From: Nitrosopumilus sp.
GTDB taxonomy: Archaea; Thermoproteota; Nitrososphaeria; Nitrososphaerales; Nitrosopumilaceae
Assembly: GCF_025699125.1 (NCBI RefSeq)
Contig: NZ_JAILWC010000003.1
Span: 124,001-188,000 of the forward strand
Reading direction: 5' to 3'
Length of the DNA: 64,000 bases
This document shows positions 46,350 to 63,458 of the stretch, piece by piece. The notes under the pieces were generated by a model that searched no databases, was not told where the DNA came from, and saw only the letters and a list, made by a program, of their open reading frames with translations. Made by a program: the position numbers and the translations under genes. Position 1 is the stretch's first letter. The number at the start of each line of letters is the position of its first letter.

Positions 46350-47705
46350 ATGTCTATTAGAAAATACGGCATCTTAGTCTTTTTAGCATATTTAGTATTT
46401 CCAGCAAGTAATGTCTATGGACATGGGTTCGGGATTGATACAATTTCATCCATAGATATTCAGGGAAAAGAATTATCGATTTCTGTAGAAATGCCAATGT
46501 ATTTTGAAAATACACAGGAACAAATTACAATCACTGCAACTGAAAAAGAAACAAAAGAAAATGCAAAAAATGTAACATTTCTAATTGGGTTGTTTCATGA
46601 GAATGAAATGATTTTTAGAAATTATTTTTTTGCTGATAATGGAATTTTACAAATTAAGGTAACGCCAACACAAGAAGAAAAAATTACAATTCATGGAGAA
46701 CAAGACTCTTTACTTGGAGCTTGGCATGGAACTGAATCTAATCCTATAGAAATCACTGGTCCATTATTTGATTCAGGAGGTCTATACAATTTTGAAATTG
46801 AGGTTAGAACTATTGATGAACCCACAAACATCATAGAGAATTCTGGTATCTATAATGCTGATTTGAGTTTAATTGAGATTATCTCTTTTATTCAAAAGGA
46901 TTCTGAAAACAATGATGTAGAATTTCGTTCAAAGTCATATTTTGATACAGTTTCTAATTTCAAGTATGATTTTGTGGCTAAAGAGGTTACATTTGAAATG
47001 CCATTTGATTGGAGTGAAAAACAAATATCTCACATACCTGTAGTTCATGTAGAAACTCATCTACCAAAAGATTTTGTAGAATTTCTTTCTCCCAGCTATT
47101 CTGCATATGTAAATGGTGTCGAACTATTCAAGTCCTCAATATCTGTTGATGATTATACAGAGGATGATGAAAGAATAATTCATCTTGTTTTATTACAAGA
47201 TCATTTAAGATATTTGAAAAATGAAATGAAAAAATTAGATGAACCAATAACAGAAAATATGGCATTTAGAATATCTGCTAGTGAGAATACTGCATTTCCG
47301 TTAGAAGCGTATACAAAAAGTGAGGACTTTAAGGTAAATCTTTCGTGGGATCCGTTAAAAGTAGAACCTGGAATTGACACAAATTTTATTTTCACTATTA
47401 GGGACGGTAGAACAAATGATCCTTTACGAAGTTCTGATTATACATTTGTCCTAATTCAAAATGGTAAAGAGATTCATCGTGTATCTGGAACTGCTCAAAT
47501 AGGTGGAGAATTTGAAAAATTTATGTTTGCTGAAGATCAAACAGGTCCTACAATAATTAAATTTGAAAACATTAGAAATACGGGACAAGAAACTGAATTT
47601 GCACTAGTTGTCGTACCAGAATTTGGAACTATTACATTATTGATATTAGTAATTTCAATAATGAGTATTGTTTTTGTTAGTAGAAGAAATCCATTAACAA
47701 TCTAA
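46350..47705 (+). CDS. Secreted N-terminal-His family protein with PEFG-CTERM tail
   Basis: The first of four related secreted proteins here. A signal peptide (1-24, ending NVYG) is followed by His25 (HGFGID). Shared with the paralogs at 55991, 57942 and 61893 are GPLFDSGGLY, YFDTVSNF, MPFDW (218-221), VVHVE (His233) and RIIHLV (His278). The C-terminus is VPEFGTITLLILVISIM followed by basic SRRN, the PEFG-CTERM signal for archaeosortase processing and surface attachment; the other three paralogs carry WIKNNAxWW-type repeats instead. 451 residues. Function unknown; three conserved histidines suggest metal binding. Confidence 0.8.
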   Translation: MSIRKYGILVFLAYLVFPASNVYGHGFGIDTISSIDIQGKELSISVEMPMYFENTQEQITITATEKETKENAKNVTFLIGLFHENEMIFRNYFFADNGILQIKVTPTQEEKITIHGEQDSLLGAWHGTESNPIEITGPLFDSGGLYNFEIEVRTIDEPTNIIENSGIYNADLSLIEIISFIQKDSENNDVEFRSKSYFDTVSNFKYDFVAKEVTFEMPFDWSEKQISHIPVVHVETHLPKDFVEFLSPSYSAYVNGVELFKSSISVDDYTEDDERIIHLVLLQDHLRYLKNEMKKLDEPITENMAFRISASENTAFPLEAYTKSEDFKVNLSWDPLKVEPGIDTNFIFTIRDGRTNDPLRSSDYTFVLIQNGKEIHRVSGTAQIGGEFEKFMFAEDQTGPTIIKFENIRNTGQETEFALVVVPEFGTITLLILVISIMSIVFVSRRNPLTI

Positions 47706-53419: not shown

Positions 53420-53478
53420 TTTTCATGTGTTCGTCATTTGTACCAATTCACGTAAAGATAATAACTTGTAAATGTCCT

Positions 53479-54117
53479 ATGATATCTGTGAAGCTAGTAA
53501 TCTTTGGATTTATTGGATTGTTGTTTAGCATTGGAATGATTAGTGCTTCATTTGCACATACCTCTGTAGAAGTAGAACAATACCATATCGAAGTAGGATG
53601 GGGAATTGAACCACCAGTTGTAGGAATTAGAAACGACATTGTCTTTAAAATCACTGAACCTGGAGAAACTGAGGGTTCCTACAAGGGAGTCACCAATGTA
53701 TTCAAAAATGTAGTGGCTACAGTAATGTATGGCGGAGCCGCCAAAAAAATCGATATTAATTCTGATCCAAGACCTGGATATTATTTCTCACCCATAATTC
53801 CAACTAAAACTGGAAGTTACATTATGAATCTGCAAGGAGATATTCGTGGTACTATTATTGATATCAAAATTCCAATTGAGGATGTAGAATCTACTGCAAT
53901 CTTGGATTTTCCTCCTACAAGTAGTGAAGGCACTGCAGACATTACTGCACTAAAAAATGCATTATCCTCACTTCAGCAAGATGTTTCTAAACTAAAGTCT
54001 GGCGAGACTTCTGTATCTTCTGATGGTGGAGCAGCTTATGACTTTGCAATATTTGGATTATCAATTGCAGCAGCAGCTATTGTCTTGGCAATTATTGCTT
54101 TAGTAAAAAGAAAATAG
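53479..54117 (+). CDS. Secreted N-terminal-His protein with C-terminal membrane anchor
   Basis: From ATG 53479 the protein has a signal peptide (1-26, ending ASFA) and mature N-terminal His27 (HTSVEVEQYHIEVGWGIEPP), a beta-rich domain, a coiled segment (DITALKNALSSLQQDVSKLK) and a C-terminal membrane helix ending KRK. The frame is open to ATG 53425, which would add a Cys-rich 18-residue prefix with no signal character. Divergent from the CopC-CopD fusion and next to a copper protein, it is probably in copper handling; His27 and His36 are candidate ligands. Confidence 0.72.
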   Translation: MISVKLVIFGFIGLLFSIGMISASFAHTSVEVEQYHIEVGWGIEPPVVGIRNDIVFKITEPGETEGSYKGVTNVFKNVVATVMYGGAAKKIDINSDPRPGYYFSPIIPTKTGSYIMNLQGDIRGTIIDIKIPIEDVESTAILDFPPTSSEGTADITALKNALSSLQQDVSKLKSGETSVSSDGGAAYDFAIFGLSIAAAAIVLAIIALVKRK

Positions 54118-54129
54118 AAAAGAGGATTC

Positions 54130-55008
54130 CTAAAATCTTGGAATGACTCTAGATTTTGCAGTTACTGCAACAATGCTTATGATTGCAACAGCTAGTACCA
54201 TCATTGCAATTGTACCAAATTCTGGTACAACATTTGAGAATACTACTTCTTCACCAATTGGTCCTGTTTTAGGATCTTCAACACCATAACCTTGGAAGGT
54301 AATAGTGATGTCTACTGGATCAGAAGAACTTAATGGTGCTGTTGTATGCATACCTGTACCTTCATGATGATGTGCGCCTTCATCCATCAAAACTTCTACA
54401 CCGTTTTGTGTTACCATCATATCGTGATTAACATGTTCTGCATCTTCAAATTCAATGGAAATCTCCATTGCTTCGCCTGCAGTTGGTGTTGAAGTCCAAA
54501 TAGAAACCATTGTGCCGTCAGATAACATTCCAGTTGCAGTTGCTGCACCTTCCATGTCCATCATTTCGTCATCATGTTCGTCAGTATGTTCATCCATAGC
54601 TTCTTCTGCTTCGACTTCTTGTACTACAATCAATCCTTGCATCCAAGGATGAACCATACAGAAGTAAGGAACTTCACCAATTGTGTCAGGAGACCATTCA
54701 AATGAATTTCCTGCCATTAACAATCCGGTATCAAATTCGCCACTTGGACCATCTTCAGGAGTTCCTGCTGTGAATGTATGTGCTGCTGTATCAGTATTTG
54801 ACATGATTACTTTTCCACCTACATCAACGGTTGCAGTACTTGGAATGTAACATCCCTCTGCAGTGTCTTCACATCCTGGAGCTCCAGAACCTAGTGCTGT
54901 CTCAATTGTGACTTCTGAGTGATCTGCAAAAGCAGCTGGTGTTGTTGCAACTATGCCAGCTACAATAGCAAATAGTACGAAGAAAGAGCAAATTGCTTTA
55001 GTCTTCAT
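54130..55008 (-). CDS. Type 1 copper (plastocyanin-like) protein with PEFG-CTERM tail
   Basis: The 292-residue protein has a signal peptide (1-28, ending AFA), a cupredoxin domain with TAAHTFTAG (first Cu His) and YFCMVHPWMQG (Cys, His, Met ligands), a His/Met/Asp-rich linker (DEHTDEHDDEMMDME), a second beta domain, and VPEFGTIAMMVLAVAII with a basic end, the PEFG-CTERM sorting tail. Cupredoxins carry electrons in the ammonia oxidation and respiration of these archaea, which replace cytochrome c with them. A TATA-like TTTTTATGT is 27 nt before the start. Confidence 0.93.
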   Translation of the reverse strand: MKTKAICSFFVLFAIVAGIVATTPAAFADHSEVTIETALGSGAPGCEDTAEGCYIPSTATVDVGGKVIMSNTDTAAHTFTAGTPEDGPSGEFDTGLLMAGNSFEWSPDTIGEVPYFCMVHPWMQGLIVVQEVEAEEAMDEHTDEHDDEMMDMEGAATATGMLSDGTMVSIWTSTPTAGEAMEISIEFEDAEHVNHDMMVTQNGVEVLMDEGAHHHEGTGMHTTAPLSSSDPVDITITFQGYGVEDPKTGPIGEEVVFSNVVPEFGTIAMMVLAVAIISIVAVTAKSRVIPRF

Positions 55009-55065: not shown

Positions 55066-55881
55066 CTAGTCTTTTCTAAGCTGGTACAACTTTAGAATTC
55101 CAAATACTGGAATTCCTGCATACATTACAATGTTTAGTAGAACTATAGAGATCCCATATCCTAACATCTCTTCTTCTGAATTAATGCTTGCGTGATTCAA
55201 TAAAGATAATGATGTCAACATTGGAGTAAGTGATATCTTCATAATTTCTTTAAAAATTGGTTGTTCTCTCTCAAAGTCTGCAACTGCTGGTGAAAATGAG
55301 TAATAGAATTGATTGAAACCTGTCATAAATGCAGTTCCAGATTTAGTTGCTAAAATAGTATTATCTCTGAGTTCTCTTAATTGTTGGACTTGTAATGAAA
55401 GCTCAGAGCCATATGTTGCAGTAGCAATTAGACAACCACCATTTTCTCCATTAACTGTGTTTTCAGGAGGAGTTGTAGGTTGAGCTTGAGCTTCACCTAC
55501 TACAATATCAAAAGAGACAGCTTCTGCTGGAATTGGTTGGAATAAAATTCCTTCAATATTAAAATTCATAGTGTATACTCCTTCACCAAGATTGAATTCA
55601 ATTGGAATCTTTACAGAACCTAATGACGTATGTGTTAATGGAATTGGACCAAATACAGTCTCACCATCTTTTGAAACTGATACTGTATAATCAATATGCT
55701 CTTGGATTTTTTGTGTTTGAGGATTGATAAAATCAATATTTATTTTTGTTTGAATATTTGGAACTATCTCATCATATGTTAATTTAACATCTAGTGTTCC
55801 TTTCTCAGTTGGGAGTATTTGTGATTCTGCAAATGCTGGAATTATTAATAATGGAATTAGTAATACAAATAGAATTTTCAT
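55066..55881 (-). CDS. Secreted protein with CFI-box-like C-terminal domain
   Basis: The 271-residue protein has a signal peptide (about 1-17), an Ig-like outer domain, a short linker (TTPPENTVNGENGG) and then CLIATATYGSELSLQVQQLR followed by ELRD, the CFI-box type domain found at the C-termini of many archaeal and bacterial secreted proteins. Several hydrophobic segments close the protein (about 225-265). Its role is unknown; position next to the copper protein suggests the cell surface. Confidence 0.75.
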   Translation of the reverse strand: MKILFVLLIPLLIIPAFAESQILPTEKGTLDVKLTYDEIVPNIQTKINIDFINPQTQKIQEHIDYTVSVSKDGETVFGPIPLTHTSLGSVKIPIEFNLGEGVYTMNFNIEGILFQPIPAEAVSFDIVVGEAQAQPTTPPENTVNGENGGCLIATATYGSELSLQVQQLRELRDNTILATKSGTAFMTGFNQFYYSFSPAVADFEREQPIFKEIMKISLTPMLTSLSLLNHASINSEEEMLGYGISIVLLNIVMYAGIPVFGILKLYQLRKD

Positions 55882-55990: not shown

Positions 55991-57700
55991 ATGTTGTACC
56001 ATAAACTTGCGTTATCGATGATAATTATTGGTGTTTTCGCAATTCCTGCTATTCTTCCTAATGTCTTTGCACATGGACTTGGAGGAGATCAAGCTCCACC
56101 AATTAGCTTTGGTGGTATGGAGGTCACTGTACGTACACAACTAAGTCCATCAGACATTACTGTTGGTGACATTGATTCAGCTAACATGCAAGTACGCTTT
56201 TTTGATACGCTAACTGATAAGAATCTTGACAAAGTTACTTACAGAGTTGAGATTTGGCAAAGTGGAGAACTTTTAGCTAGAAATCTATTTTATGACTTGG
56301 ATGGTCGACTAGATGTTAAAATCAAACCACAACCTAATTGCAATGAAGAACATCTTGAAGAATGCTCCATTTACGGTGGTTCAGAACATGTCAGCGCACC
56401 AGGTGCACTGTTTGTTCAGGGAGCTGAATGTACTGATGATAATTTAGATATTTGTGCAAGACCCTCAATTACAGGCCCAATTTTTGTAAAGGGCGGATTA
56501 TACAAGATTAGAGTTGACATTGAAGCAGCTACCAGTCCAAAAACTGTATTGGCTAATTTGCTGAGTTATGAAACTTTTGTCAGTGTTGCACAAGAACAAG
56601 ACTTTTTTATCAAAACTGCTAATGCTGAAGAAGTTCCAGTTGTTGTAAAAACATACTATGATGATGTTGATAATTTTAAATTTGATACATCTGATAATTC
56701 AATTTCTTTTGATATGCCCTTTGATTGGAGTCCATCTTATGTTGATTTAGTGCAGGTTGTACATGAAGAAGTTAGAGTTCCAAAAACATTTACTCCTTAT
56801 GCAGAGGGAAAACAATTCAAAGGATATGTTAATGGTGTAGAAATTGATCAGAGAGCATTACTAAATGATCCCTATTCATATGAAGATACCAACATTATAC
56901 ATTTTCTAATTACAAAAAATGAATTGCAAAAAATCAATGAAAAATTAGGCGCCGACAATTACAATAATCCAAAAATGGATTTAAAACTAGTTCCATTATC
57001 TGAAGCTTCAAAAAGCTCTACAGAATTTTATCTAGTTGATACTACAAACTATGAGCAAGTTCCAACCACTGTGAAAATTTCATGGGATGGGAAATATGGT
57101 GCAAATCAAGAAATTCCATTCGAGTTTACATTCTTCAATGAAAATAGGGAACTCATAAAAGATATCAAATATGCATACTTTGTTTTTGATGAATTTGATC
57201 AAGAAATAGCTAGTAATGTTGGTGATGACACATCAAGTCTTGGAATTTCTTCTACTGAAGGAATTGACGTTCAAAGAATTTTTGTGCCATCTCAAGGTCA
57301 AATTAGAGTTGACGTTAAAGTTTTAGGAACAGGATTGGATTACAATCCAAAGTATGCCGGAATTGGTTCGGCAATTATTGAAATAGGTCCAGGTGCTCCT
57401 GTTTCTACATCTGTACCTGAGAAAGCAGTAATTCCAGCATGGATTAAAAACAATGCTGAGTGGTGGGCAGCAGGACAAATAGATGATGATTCATTCATTC
57501 AAGGAATTCAATTTTTGATTAAAGAAAATATCCTGAAAATTCCTCCAACTACACAAGGCTCCAGTTCAGTCTCAAATGAAATTCCTAGTTGGATCAAAAA
57601 CAATGCTGAGTGGTGGGCAGCAGGACAAATAGATGATGATTCATTCATTCAAGGAATTCAATTTTTGATTAAAGAAGGAATTATGAGGATTCAATCATAG
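55991..57700 (+). CDS. Secreted N-terminal-His family protein with two WIKNNAxWW repeats
   Basis: The 569-residue paralog has a signal peptide (1-27, ending NVFA) and His28 ([10 protein letters not shown]). Family blocks are [23 protein letters not shown] (243-246), VVHEE (His258), GYVNGVE and NIIHFL (His304). It alone carries an extra Cys-rich insert (about 117-156, CNEEHLEEC and CTDDNLDIC), possibly two disulfides. The C-terminus has two 50-residue repeats, [20 protein letters not shown] and LIKE, joined by a TTQGSSSVS linker. Function unknown. Confidence 0.8.
57431..57697 (+). repeat. Tandem 150-nt coding repeat with 81-nt perfect identity
   Basis: The two WIKNNAEWW units start at 57431 and 57581, 150 nt apart. 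Positions 57446-57526 and 57596-57676 are identical at the DNA level (81 nt), including third codon positions, which points to recent duplication or gene conversion. Confidence 0.9.
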
Positions 57701-57733: not shown

Positions 57734-57940
57734 ATGAAAGACATCAATGACATTATGCCTAAAATTCCAAACATGAAATGGGGCGCCTTGATGAATACCC
57801 CACCAACTAATGACAAGGTTGACGAGATGAACAAAATTTTTCCAAGTAACGGTAAATGGCATACCGTCTTTGAAGAAAAAGATCTTATTACAATTGACGG
57901 AAAAGAGATTCGTAAAAAAGATCCCGAAAAGTGGACCTAG
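57734..57940 (+). CDS. Hypothetical 68-aa protein
   Basis: The protein reads MKDINDIMPKIPNMKWGALM at the start and ends GKEIRKKDPEKWT. It has no signal peptide or membrane helix, so it is probably cytoplasmic. A clear TATA box precedes it, and the next gene (TTG at 57942) begins 1 nt after its stop, so it probably leads a two-gene unit with a family member. No family recognised. Confidence 0.65.
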   Translation: MKDINDIMPKIPNMKWGALMNTPPTNDKVDEMNKIFPSNGKWHTVFEEKDLITIDGKEIRKKDPEKWT

Positions 57941-57941
57941 A

Positions 57942-59498
57942 TTGAGAAACTCTTTACTGATTTTAACTCTAATACTATCAGTTGTTCTTGTATTGGCATT
58001 TGATAATGTGTATGGTCATGGAGTTGGAAGTGAAACTTTTCCTCCTGTAGAATTAGATGGAAGATTAGTTACATTGGAAGTTTCATCTTCAACAAGTGAT
58101 CCTGGCACTACTGATGACCAACAAATATCAATTTCATTAATTGATTTTGATTCAAAAGTTACTCTACGAGATGTTACTTTTCTGATTAAATCACAACGTG
58201 GTGAACAATTTCTATTTGAACAAGAATTCAAAGCTGATAATGGATTCATAGTTTTTAATTTTGTATCTGAACAAACTAATTCTATAATTATTGAAGAAGA
58301 TCATGGAGGTAATCTATTTGGTTCATTACTTGGACTTGATAGCAGAATGGTTCATGTAAAAGGACCAAAACTTAGTGAAGGCGGACTATACAAATTTGAT
58401 GTTACTATACTTACCGCAGATGGGTATTCTAAAAAACTAGTAACCCCTCTAGTTTTTAATGCCGGAATCTCTATTGCACAAACTACACAATTTGATTTTA
58501 TTGATCCAAACTTTGGGGATCAATATATACAAGTAATATCATATTATGATAAAATTTCGAATTTCAAATATCAACCTGATTTAAGAGAAATTAGTTATTC
58601 GATGCCTTTTGAATGGAGCCAATCCAACATTAATCAAACATCTGTTGTTCATCAGGAACTTGTAATTCCAAAAAATTTTGGTGATTTGTTAGTGTCGGGA
58701 TTTTCAATGTATATTAATTTTGTAAAGATCTCAGATGATGTTGTAAACATTGATGATTTTTTTTCAGATCAACGTGTAGTTCATTTTATAATATATCAAA
58801 AGGAACTACAAAATGTATTTCATTTTAATCCCAATCAAAACGGAATGGATTTCATAATAAAACCGGACCGTGACTATTCTCATTTAAGCTCAGTCACTGA
58901 AAATGGACAATTTAGAATTCTAGTATCTTGGGAACCTGAGAATCTAAAATCTAATTCTAATGCAAAAATAATTTTTGATATTACAGATATTTTCTTAAAG
59001 AATAGACCTGTTGCTACAAGTTATGAATTTTCAGTTACACAAAATGACAAAATAATTTTTGAACAAAGTGGAATTAGTAGTGATTCAAAAGAACAACGCA
59101 ATGTTGCAGAATTTCTGATTCCTCAGGATATAACAGGCGTTGTAAATCTAAATTTTAAAAATTTAGACAATAACAATCTTGCAAAAACAACAATTCCAAT
59201 TGTTATTGATAGAATTTCAGATCAAAAAGATGAATTCATTCCTGATTGGATTCGAAATAATGCATTATGGTGGTCTGAAGAACAGATTGATGATAATACA
59301 TTCATTCAAGGAATTGAATATCTAATTAAAAACAAAATCATAATTATTCCAGAAACTCAAAAAGAATCCTCAGATTCCCACGAAATTCCATCATGGATTC
59401 GAAATAATGCATCTTGGTGGGCAGCAGGACAAATTGATGATAAAACATTTGTTCAGGGATTGGAATTTTTAATTCAAAGAGGAATTATTCATGTTTGA
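57942..59498 (+). CDS. Secreted N-terminal-His family protein with two WIRNNAxWW repeats
   Basis: I start this 518-residue paralog at TTG 57942, right after the previous stop, because this gives a clean signal peptide (1-25, ending NVYG) before His26 (HGVGSETFPP). The frame is open to 57870 but that part overlaps the 68-aa gene. Family blocks: GPKLSEGGLY, YYDKISNF, MPFEW (222-225), VVHQE (His237) and RVVHFI (His281). Two C-terminal repeats (WIRNNALWWSEEQIDD and [16 protein letters not shown]) end the protein. Confidence 0.8.
   Translation: MRNSLLILTLILSVVLVLAFDNVYGHGVGSETFPPVELDGRLVTLEVSSSTSDPGTTDDQQISISLIDFDSKVTLRDVTFLIKSQRGEQFLFEQEFKADNGFIVFNFVSEQTNSIIIEEDHGGNLFGSLLGLDSRMVHVKGPKLSEGGLYKFDVTILTADGYSKKLVTPLVFNAGISIAQTTQFDFIDPNFGDQYIQVISYYDKISNFKYQPDLREISYSMPFEWSQSNINQTSVVHQELVIPKNFGDLLVSGFSMYINFVKISDDVVNIDDFFSDQRVVHFIIYQKELQNVFHFNPNQNGMDFIIKPDRDYSHLSSVTENGQFRILVSWEPENLKSNSNAKIIFDITDIFLKNRPVATSYEFSVTQNDKIIFEQSGISSDSKEQRNVAEFLIPQDITGVVNLNFKNLDNNNLAKTTIPIVIDRISDQKDEFIPDWIRNNALWWSEEQIDDNTFIQGIEYLIKNKIIIIPETQKESSDSHEIPSWIRNNASWWAAGQIDDKTFVQGLEFLIQRGIIHV
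59238..59495 (+). repeat. Tandem WIRNNAxWW coding repeats
   Basis: Two units begin at 59238 and 59385 (147 nt apart). They are conserved in protein sequence but have diverged at many codon positions, unlike those in the 55991 and 61893 genes. Confidence 0.85.
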
Positions 59499-59954: not shown

Positions 59955-60447
59955 TAGAGACTCACAATTACAGCAAATCATTGAAGAAAATCCTGGAATT
60001 CAATTCCGTGAAATAATGCGTTCATCTGGATTAAAAAATGGTGTACTCAGTCATTATCTAGGAAAATTAGAAAAAAGTGGAATAATCAAAGTTATTCGTG
60101 GTCCACGGCAAGCCAGATTCTATCCACCTAGAATAACCGAAAACGAATCTATTGTTATCAAAGCTCTAAGAAAAGAAACTCCACGTGATTTGTTACTTGC
60201 ACTAATCAAAGAAGATGGATTAGAATTTAGTCACCTAGTAAAAGAAGTTGGGAAATCACCATCAACTGTTTCGCTTTATCTTTCCCAGATAGTTGATGAT
60301 GGACTAGTTGAAATAAAACTAGTTCAACTCAAAAAGAGATATTATATTAAAGCAAGAGATCTCATAGATAAATTAGTTGAAGAATATAGACCAGGCTTAC
60401 TTGAAAAACCAACATCCGGATTTGAAGATATCATTAACTCTTTCTAA
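59947..60447 (+). CDS. Transcriptional regulator with two winged-helix domains
   Basis: The 166-residue protein has a first wHTH (about 5-60, GIQFREIMRSSGLKNGVLSH, with wing RGPRQARFYPP) and a second (about 75-140, FSHLVKEVGKSPSTVSLYLS, with wing KLVQLKKRYYI). Double wHTH proteins of this kind are common in archaea. It is translationally linked to the His-rich membrane protein before it and to the repeat protein after it, so it may control the local surface-protein genes. Confidence 0.82.
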   Translation: MTDRDSQLQQIIEENPGIQFREIMRSSGLKNGVLSHYLGKLEKSGIIKVIRGPRQARFYPPRITENESIVIKALRKETPRDLLLALIKEDGLEFSHLVKEVGKSPSTVSLYLSQIVDDGLVEIKLVQLKKRYYIKARDLIDKLVEEYRPGLLEKPTSGFEDIINSF

Positions 60448-61666
60448 TTCAACTCTTTATATTTCTGCAATTGTATATTTTTGTCTTGTTTTATTTTCTC
60501 CAGTTGCTCATGCTGATGTTTTCATCCCTGATAATGAATATCATGGTTATTACGATTTTGAAGGAATTTACACTGTTGTTGGTAATGTTAAAAATCAAAA
60601 TGATTTTGCATTAATTCCAACAATCACAATATCTGTAATTGACGATGAAACAAAAATTACCAAGACACTTAACCATGTTCCAATTCCTCCAATGGTTGAC
60701 ATTCCATTCAAACTAAAATTCCCAGAAATTCATGGTCAAAATCCTGTTGTACTAAAAGCAGAACTAAAATATGTAAAGACCGAAAAACCCCCCATTCCCA
60801 TCCAGATTATCTATGATAAAACTTTGATAACTTATGATGATGGTCATGTTACCGGCAGAATCAAAAACATTGGAAATCAAACTGTATACAATCCCAAAAT
60901 CTTTGCAATTGTGCATGGTTATGAAAAATACATCTTAGATGTGGCTCAAAACATTGATCGTATTGAAAAAATTGAACCAGGAGAAATTCTAAACTTTACG
61001 ATATATCCTGATCCATCTGTTTCTGAACCTGTTCGCTTTTATTCTTGTTTTGCACCTGTGGATACTACAGTAATTCCTCTTACTACAAAAAAGAATAATG
61101 GCGATTTTGATTTCAGATATGATTCCGGAGCGTGGTATTATGCTGCAAAATTTGACGAAAAGGGAACTACATTAAGCATTAAAGGATACAACAGCTACCC
61201 ATTAGAGACTTATGCAAACTTTGAGTTTCCTCCAATTTCAGGAAATGAAAAATTTACAGTTACGCTAAATGATGAGCCTATAGAATTTATTCAAAGTGTA
61301 GATGAGATGGGCTTTTGGCATGTGGCTTTCAAAGTAGAGCCTAGATCACAGGGAGTCTTGAAAATTTCTGGTTTTGAGAAAGGATTGCCTCCTGAACTAC
61401 CAAAAATCCCACAATGGATTAAGGTTAATGCAGAATGGTGGATAACAGACCAAATATCTGATTTAGAATTTCTTGAAGGAATAGATTATTTGTTTGAAAA
61501 ACAAATAATCTCTGTTCCTGAACGAGAGGTAATTGCTGAATCTCAATGGAAGATTCCTGAATGGGTAAAAATTTCTGCTGAATGGTGGTATGAAGAAAAA
61601 ATCTCTGATGATGACTTTCTAAATACAATTGAAAATCTTGTTAAGCGAAAAATAATCATAGTTTAA
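60422..61666 (+). CDS. Secreted protein with two degenerate WIKxNAEWW repeats
   Basis: I place the start at TTG 60422 (MKISLTL...), inside the regulator gene end, because it gives a signal peptide ending in VAHA; the frame is open to 60377. The mature part begins DVFIPDNEYHGYYDFEG and has CARDB/Ig-like strands (VVGNVKNQNDFALIPTITIS). The C-terminus has WIKVNAEWWITDQISDLEF and WVKISAEWWYEEKISDDDF. It lacks the HGxG start and the VVHxE/MPFDW blocks, so it shares only the anchor repeats with the neighbouring family. Confidence 0.75.
   Translation: MKISLTLSNSTLYISAIVYFCLVLFSPVAHADVFIPDNEYHGYYDFEGIYTVVGNVKNQNDFALIPTITISVIDDETKITKTLNHVPIPPMVDIPFKLKFPEIHGQNPVVLKAELKYVKTEKPPIPIQIIYDKTLITYDDGHVTGRIKNIGNQTVYNPKIFAIVHGYEKYILDVAQNIDRIEKIEPGEILNFTIYPDPSVSEPVRFYSCFAPVDTTVIPLTTKKNNGDFDFRYDSGAWYYAAKFDEKGTTLSIKGYNSYPLETYANFEFPPISGNEKFTVTLNDEPIEFIQSVDEMGFWHVAFKVEPRSQGVLKISGFEKGLPPELPKIPQWIKVNAEWWITDQISDLEFLEGIDYLFEKQIISVPEREVIAESQWKIPEWVKISAEWWYEEKISDDDFLNTIENLVKRKIIIV
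61406..61663 (+). repeat. Degenerate WIKxNAEWW coding repeats
   Basis: Units begin at 61406 and 61553 (147 nt apart). The Trp-Trp pair and the hydrophobic LIEK-type end are kept, the rest has drifted. Confidence 0.75.
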
Positions 61667-61892
61667 GAAAATTAGATAATCATTTTATATCTACCATAAA
61701 TTATGTAAGCATATATTAATCATAAAATAATTTTTTGGTTTTCACCAATACAACTAATGACTCCTCCATTTCTCACCTAACCATGACCATATAGTGTTGA
61801 TAATGAAGAATCGATAAAACAGATTGTATATTAGTTTCTTACCTTTTTTATTTCATGAAATTTTAATAGCAGAAATTCCAAGCAATAAAATC
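61667..61892. other. Intergenic region before the last family member
   Basis: About 225 nt of AT-rich sequence. A TTTTAATA box near 61858-61869 fits the TTG start at 61893. An alternative TTG start at 61824 has a CATATAG box about 30 nt upstream. No RNA gene is evident. Confidence 0.45.
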
Positions 61893-63458
61893 TTGAAAAT
61901 TTTAGCCTCAATAATTGTAATTTGCATTATATTTTCATTTGCAATAATTCCAAATGTGTTTGGACATGGATTAGGTGGAGAAGTTTTACCACCCATAATC
62001 ATTGACAATAAACAAGCTTCACTTTCAATTAGTATAACGCCATCAGTTTTTGATGAAAATCCTGAAAAGTACATCTCACTTAGACTCTTTGATTCAAACA
62101 CTGATGCAATAATTGAACATGTTACATTTGAATTTGAATTAAAAAAAGACGGGAAACAAATTTTCAAAGATATTTTTCATGATGAACTAGGAAATCTCAA
62201 CATCAAAGTATTAACAGATAATTCAAACGATATTACAATAGAGGGAATCAAAGAACCAGTTTTGGGAGGTTGGATGAAAAGTGATTCTAATCCATTAACT
62301 CTTAGAGGTCCAGCTTTTACTTCTGGTGGATTGTATGAATATACTGTAAAAATTCTATCAATTAATTCTGATTCTAATATAATTAATGAAGAAATAATAT
62401 TAGATGGTGGAATTAGCATTGCTCAAACAAATTATTTCAATGTAAATGATTACCTAAATGAAGAAAAAACACTCCAAGTAATATCTTATTTTGATACTAT
62501 AAACAACTTTAATTTTGAATCAAATACAATAGAATTTTCAATGCCATTTGATTGGAATCAAGATCTTGAACAACTAAGTGTGGTTCATCAAGAAATTAGG
62601 GTGCCAAATACTTTTGGAGATTTTCTTTCAACAAGATATGATTCAACAGTCAATGGAATTCTACTACCAGATGAATCTGTAACAATTGATGATTATTCTT
62701 TTGAAGACAGGACAATCCACATAGTTGTAAATCAGGAATTAATCAAACAAATCCAAAATGAGGCAATACAGATATCTGACACAATAATGAATTTTCACCT
62801 ACGACCAAGTGAAATTGTCAAATTTCCCCTAGAATTTGTAACTCCTGATTTAAGATACAAAGTATTTTTGTCATGGGAGCCTGAAATTATCCACACAGAA
62901 GACGAAATTACGTTTTTTGTTGCTTTTGAGGAGATTTTTTCAGATAAATCAAAAAAACTCGTAGAATATGATCTATCGATAATACAAAAAAATAACGAAA
63001 TATTTTCAAAACATCTAGCAGGAAATGTAAATTCTGAAAAACCAAATTCACACAAAATCACATTTAGTGATGAACAATCTGGCACTGCAAATTTTGTTTT
63101 ATCTAACATAGGCGGAAATTCATTATCTAAAGGAAATTTTATTCTAGTTATTCAACCACCTAGTGATATTCAAAATGATTCATCAACAATTCCAGAATGG
63201 ATTAAAAATAACGCAGCATGGTGGTCTGAAGGTACAATTGATGACGACTCATTTATTCAAGGAATTCAGTTTCTCATAAAAGAAGGCATTTTGCAAATAC
63301 CTTATACTACACAAGGTAGCAGTTCGACCTCAAATCAAATTCCAGAATGGATTAAAAATAACGCAGCATGGTGGTCTGAAGGTACAATTGATGACGACTC
63401 ATTTATTCAAGGAATTCAGTTTCTCATAAAAGAAGGAATTTTACAAATAACAAGCTGA
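61893..63458 (+). CDS. Secreted N-terminal-His family protein with two identical WIKNNAAWW repeats
   Basis: From TTG 61893 the 521-residue paralog has a signal peptide (1-24, ending NVFG) and His25 (HGLGGEVLPP). The frame is open to TTG 61824, which would add 23 residues before the signal. Family blocks: GPAFTSGGLY, YFDTINNF, MPFDW (218-221), VVHQE (His232) and RTIHIV (His276). The C-terminus has two repeats with WIKNNAAWWSEGTIDDDSF, joined by the TTQGSSSTS linker shared with the 55991 gene. Function unknown. Confidence 0.8.
   Translation: MKILASIIVICIIFSFAIIPNVFGHGLGGEVLPPIIIDNKQASLSISITPSVFDENPEKYISLRLFDSNTDAIIEHVTFEFELKKDGKQIFKDIFHDELGNLNIKVLTDNSNDITIEGIKEPVLGGWMKSDSNPLTLRGPAFTSGGLYEYTVKILSINSDSNIINEEIILDGGISIAQTNYFNVNDYLNEEKTLQVISYFDTINNFNFESNTIEFSMPFDWNQDLEQLSVVHQEIRVPNTFGDFLSTRYDSTVNGILLPDESVTIDDYSFEDRTIHIVVNQELIKQIQNEAIQISDTIMNFHLRPSEIVKFPLEFVTPDLRYKVFLSWEPEIIHTEDEITFFVAFEEIFSDKSKKLVEYDLSIIQKNNEIFSKHLAGNVNSEKPNSHKITFSDEQSGTANFVLSNIGGNSLSKGNFILVIQPPSDIQNDSSTIPEWIKNNAAWWSEGTIDDDSFIQGIQFLIKEGILQIPYTTQGSSSTSNQIPEWIKNNAAWWSEGTIDDDSFIQGIQFLIKEGILQITS
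63188..63436 (+). repeat. Tandem 150-nt coding repeat with 99-nt perfect identity
   Basis: Positions 63188-63286 and 63338-63436 are identical (99 nt) and offset by exactly 150 nt, encoding the WIKNNAAWW unit. Identity at silent sites shows recent homogenisation. Confidence 0.92.

Follow-up and report, generated by a model that had tools for sequence, protein, structure and literature searches.

The window analysed in this work, 64,000 nucleotides in length, covers positions 124001–188000 of contig C3 in a 1.85-Mb archaeal genome (G000), and the relatives that carry a name in the collection searched belong to Nitrosopumilus and other genera of the Nitrosopumilaceae. The gene at 46350–47705 (+ strand) encodes a secreted Ig-like protein of 451 amino acids, a member of what we call family F, which ends with a PEFG-CTERM tail (47610–47696, residues 421–449; TIGR04296, 44.2 bits at a cut-off of 25). 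Three other members of this family, all on the + strand, are homologous to it over the full length up to the tail (27–32% identity, 45 invariant columns), and each of them carries two units of the WIKNNAxWW repeat instead. The protein encoded at 55991–57700 (569 amino acids) is composed of a signal peptide, Ig-like domains, a disordered linker and repeat units at 57431–57544 and 57581–57691, 87% identical in DNA. In the gene at 57870–59498 the units occupy 59238–59351 and 59385–59495, while that at 61824–63458 ends with two almost identical ones (63189–63302 and 63339–63449, 96% identity in DNA). The same repeats close a secreted protein unrelated to family F (60377–61666, + strand, start probably at 60422; units at 61406–61519 and 61553–61663), which belongs to a separate cluster of 24 relatives, all with repeats. 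This arrangement, one PEFG-tailed protein, three repeat-tailed homologues and one unrelated carrier, had been described in an earlier note made from the letters of the window, and profile matches together with the family alignment confirm it. The units are not chance resemblances, with E-values mostly between 1e-13 and 1e-22 per unit in searches with a hidden Markov model (HMM) built from 18 units. Foldseek matches of family F to complement and macroglobulin (TM-score below 0.2) signify merely several Ig-like domains.

Other types of tail are found between these genes. The secreted protein at 53425–54117 (+ strand) has a C-terminal transmembrane (TM) tail, in place of which L002, a paralogue encoded in another part of this genome, bears two repeat units. 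On the – strand, a cupredoxin-like protein (54130–55008) ends with a PEFG tail (TIGR04296 match), whereas L015, another copper-binding protein of this genome, has a single repeat unit after its signal peptide. The PEFG motif, TM segment and basic C-terminus that characterise PEFG-CTERM are present in the products of 46350–47705 and 54130–55008 and in no repeat protein. A gene of the archaeosortase family is encoded in the same genome (TIGR04178; G000:C1:816494-816775; 47 bits, cut-off 23). Adjoining the PEFG cupredoxin is a protein with a CFI-box-CTERM and a TM segment (55066–55881, – strand, profile match); this tail is a further exchangeable module of the lineage.

In the whole genome, profile searches combined with retrieved stretches gave about 39 repeat units on about 20 proteins. 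The unit is about 37 residues long and the two units of a pair are spaced 48–50 residues in about 98% of cases. Among 66 units with less than 60% mutual identity the strongest positions are Pro2 (98%), Trp4 (97%), Lys/Arg6 (95%) and Trp12 (95%), followed by Ala9, Trp11, Gly15, Ile17, Asp/Glu19, Phe22 and Leu/Met29, and the double Asn of WIKNNAxWW is frequent and not essential. We collected 277 distinct complete repeat ORFs, of which 257 have two units, 19 one (PstS, PhnD and cupredoxin are among them) and a single one three. The repeat is C-terminal in 232, internal in 23 and near the N-terminus in 22, in the last case mostly right after the signal peptide, hence the earlier description is refined: the repeat need not be C-terminal. 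Pairs are acidic, with a mean net charge of –5.3. AlphaFold2, run on 42 tails from the window and the database, predicts with confidence (pLDDT 89.7, pTM 0.78) four helices, two per unit; in the full-length model of the 55991 protein (pLDDT 82) several beta domains are followed by a linker (471–479, below 50) and four helices (483–561). Units share 71% of amino acids within a protein and 56–58% between proteins, which, together with the DNA identity of the pair in 61824, implies that they are homogenised or duplicated locally.

The repeat was compared with Pfam, NCBIfam and PDB sequences, and no match above cut-off or otherwise credible was obtained. Foldseek searches of PDB and viral folds also gave no credible relative; the best of 37 PDB matches of a model with pLDDT 90 had an E-value of 3.2, although relatives of such short helical models are easily missed in this way. 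The string WIKNNAxWW was not found in the literature searched. We predict that the repeat is a previously undescribed small two-helix module, of which two copies in tandem usually follow a flexible linker.

Its distribution is restricted. The repeat was present in all 63 sampled genomes of the Nitrosopumilaceae (this one and 62 more; genome group f1 was taken as this family from its named relatives), while 11 other members of the order and about 324 further genomes of the phylum had none. In a second sampling of the order it was found in 24/24 genomes of the family, with 17–46 units each, and outside the family in 1 of 97 genomes, as one weak match (E 0.009). PEFG is the older of the two, or in any case the more widespread, as it exceeds the TIGR04296 threshold in four of the order's families. 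Two bacterial carriers, L065 (Proteobacteria) and L075 (Phycisphaerales), were rejected, as both have the same gene cluster as the archaea and their contigs have probably been misbinned. A viral origin was rejected as well, because none of 50,697 phage records matched and the sole IMG/VR match, L127 (IMGVR_UViG_3300006340_000718), is probably a chimera, or host gene capture. Alongside phage structural genes this contig, listed as viral, has an ABC operon for phosphonate, the binding protein of which bears two repeat units.

A hydropathy scan placed a signal peptide on essentially all 277 ORFs. The scan flagged 14 ORFs. Those flagged for a missing N-terminal hydrophobic stretch were truncated at a contig end, contained N-masked sequence, had been extended too far upstream (in GC-rich genomes) or fell slightly short of the threshold despite a clear signal peptide, the exception being L259, where the start is not clear. 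After allowing for the repeats themselves, none of the 277 has a PEFG-type tail or a C-terminal membrane helix. Neither of the two findings named in the earlier note as contrary to its proposal, many proteins with the two modules together and cytoplasmic proteins bearing repeats, was thus encountered. At the same loci a C-terminal membrane segment is present in 96 of 180 comparable repeat-free secreted proteins versus 0 of 163 with repeats (gene-level Fisher p about 6e-35, a value inflated by relatedness of the genes and given no weight here). Counted per protein family, the numbers are 7/53 repeat-free families anchored versus 0/17 repeat families (p about 0.13, by hand); by this count the exclusion of anchors outside family F is weak and alone is not a proof.

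Within family F the exclusion is strict. Its 202 members from many genomes include 146 with the repeat, 51 with PEFG or PEFP and none with both, while about 37 would be expected with both if the tails were independent; the remaining tails include a Lys-rich one (L232), CFI-box with TM (L135) and a PEFG-like PELG (L201). At least six switches between repeat and PEF tails are required by a tree inferred from 84 tail-free cores, on which well-supported branches force at least seven changes of the repeat label. The sister proteins L210 (PEFG) and L211 (repeats), from one genus, are near-identical as far as the start of their tails. The mutual exclusion in homologous proteins that was proposed for the window therefore holds across the family. 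In L225 (G000:C1:732623-734305) and its relatives, PEFP stands in place of PEFG with a weak TIGR04296 match, and it is possible that this is a variant archaeosortase signal.

Carriers with recognised domains include PstS, the phosphonate-binding protein PhnD (PF12974, with a unit directly behind the signal peptide), glucose/sorbosone dehydrogenase, a matrixin with TPR, polysaccharide deacetylase, cupredoxin, FN3, Calx-beta/TSP3 and BNR proteins. PstS (PF12849) binds phosphate for an ABC transporter and must remain close to the permease. Across Nitrosopumilaceae it has one repeat unit in 12 of the compared lineages and two in L296, and in other lineages the place of the repeat is taken by PEFG (L302, L304, L310, L311), by CFI-box-CTERM with TM, as on the 55066–55881 protein (L291, L298, L300, of other genera), by a plain TM (L109, L299), by a Lys-rich tail (L116, L295, L297) or by an acidic helical tail (L307, L308). 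None of the compared PstS proteins has two tail types, and their tree requires at least eight tail changes. The earlier suggestion that the repeat does the same job as PEFG is supported in that a second family, this time of known function, swaps the same module. The Lys-rich tails are of low complexity (DTKKKDTKKK, KKTDKKK, DAKKAADAKK) and replace the repeat both on the three PstS proteins and on L232 of family F; in genus g2 both of these unrelated families use one. Possibly they are electrostatic membrane tethers. The acidic helical tail of L307 and L308 (DEIDQSTFLNMI...GGQITNNELHDAL) is repeat-like without Trp and may be a diverged repeat unit or a SHOCT-like hairpin.

Among known systems PEFG-CTERM with its archaeosortase (TIGR04296, TIGR04178) shares with the repeat the place on the same proteins; PEFG is however a short motif with a TM segment and a basic end, and the repeat is folded, devoid of TM and found at any position. 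The earlier note had likened the repeat to bacterial SLH domains. As a functional analogy this stands, since both are tandem small modules, found at either end of unrelated secreted proteins, that would hold them non-covalently on the surface. Homology is not supported and we rejected the repeat as an SLH domain: the PF00395 profile has no match in the whole genome at E ≤ 10, despite 39 repeat units there, and no SLH entry is among the 37 Foldseek matches, with the same reservation about short helical models. We know of no SLH-type cell wall polymer in these archaea. The architecture differs too, SLH units being about 55 residues long and arranged in threes (PMC12175726), in contrast to pairs of about 37 residues. 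The repeat also resembles SHOCT (PF09851), a short helical hairpin, often C-terminal, with a G-x-I-[ST]-x-x-[EF] turn, but this candidate was discarded, as the profile matches five other places of the genome and no repeat. Pseudomurein-binding and other archaeal wall-binding repeats are examples of repeat-based, non-covalent surface retention in archaea. The WIKNNAxWW repeat matches none of the Pfam families above cut-off, and archaea of the Nitrosopumilaceae type have an S-layer, not pseudomurein. Another mode of attachment is that of NmPin, a secreted AOA protein that a lysine patch, rather than a TM segment or a lipid, keeps at the external side of the membrane (PMC4922055). The repeat pair is acidic and thus unlike this basic electrostatic patch; the Lys-rich tails might act in its manner.

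Taken together, these data make it quite probable that the WIKNNAxWW module keeps secreted proteins of Nitrosopumilaceae at the cell surface by non-covalent binding, functionally like the other tails. As is expected of a surface-retention module, its carriers are exported, and it replaces known anchors on homologues without coexisting with them. The argument draws on computed observations, namely export signals, modularity, exclusion of anchors, repeated swapping in two families and the confident helical fold. From them we infer that the repeat binds, that its binding retains the protein, and which partner may be involved. A carrier would be exported via its signal peptide, and the module would then dock on a partner at the outer membrane face or on the S-layer above, taking over the job done on related proteins by a C-terminal membrane helix, an archaeosortase tail or a Lys-rich tail; the carriers are thus presumably located at the cell surface. 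A folded domain that is position-independent, borne on a linker, attached to many unrelated domains and interchangeable with tethers is what one expects of non-covalent retention. If instead the module only joined secreted proteins in a shared extracellular complex, with the exclusion of anchors as a by-product, its small helical build and pairing in 257/277 proteins would be well accounted for, as would the acidic pair, which is no simple electrostatic lipid binder. Such an assembly domain should nevertheless coexist with anchors at times, which never happens in the 277 ORFs, and on PstS and family F it should not stand in for PEFG, TM and Lys-rich tails while the other domains stay unchanged, so we regard this explanation as unlikely. 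Still less probable is an export sorting or processing signal, possibly cut off, like PEFG, PEP-CTERM or the CTD of type 9 secretion: the C-terminal position in 232 ORFs and the exchange with PEFG would agree with it, but the position-independence of the repeat, placed directly behind the signal peptide or between domains in 45 ORFs, speaks against a cleaved signal, as do the lack of a hydrophobic membrane segment or basic end and the predicted folded pair of hairpins. We give the least credence to neutral exchange of tails by recombination between repeated DNA. The closer likeness of units within proteins does point to local gene conversion or duplication; the exchanged partners (PEFG, TM, Lys-rich) are however non-homologous and never occur with the repeat, and family F is almost never tailless.

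If the module does retain proteins, its partner may equally well be a membrane-proximal receptor as not, and the S-layer lattice or its glycans are a tenable though more tentative candidate; the former is somewhat more likely, because every tail for which the repeat substitutes resembles a membrane tether. No conserved receptor came to light. A receptor would be dispensable if the Trp-rich unit were itself an amphipathic anchor inserted at the membrane interface. The three conserved Trp residues, hydrophobic helices and substitution for membrane tethers would suit such insertion, yet the repeat is net acidic, its Trp pattern would rather fit residues buried inside a folded unit, and it is missing from other AOA families whose membrane is similar; we consider this version of retention rather doubtful. 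A retention module might, with about even chances, serve as a lineage-specific, general surface dock, in which a membrane or S-layer receptor displays 20 or so enzymes, binding proteins and adhesins via the acidic Trp-rich pair, alongside and interchangeably with archaeosortase, TM and Lys-rich tethers.

Few archaea of the ocean are as abundant as the Nitrosopumilaceae, and the repeat would bear on how they hold extracytoplasmic proteins in place. In N. maritimus the anchoring of the S-layer itself is not settled (PMC11153153). Provided that the repeat acts in retention, it would define a large part of the surface proteome, given the 20 or so carriers in each genome, among them the binding proteins of phosphate and phosphonate uptake; it would also help to find the receptor and let many proteins now called hypothetical be annotated as held at the surface.

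In these genomes many secreted proteins have neither anchor nor repeat, and a clade of tandem PstS paralogues has no tail, hence an anchor is not obligatory. In L302, L304, L306 and L310 this tailless clade adjoins the PEFG-tailed one as tandem paralogues, and one of the two PstS copies may be released, or may be in complex with the other.
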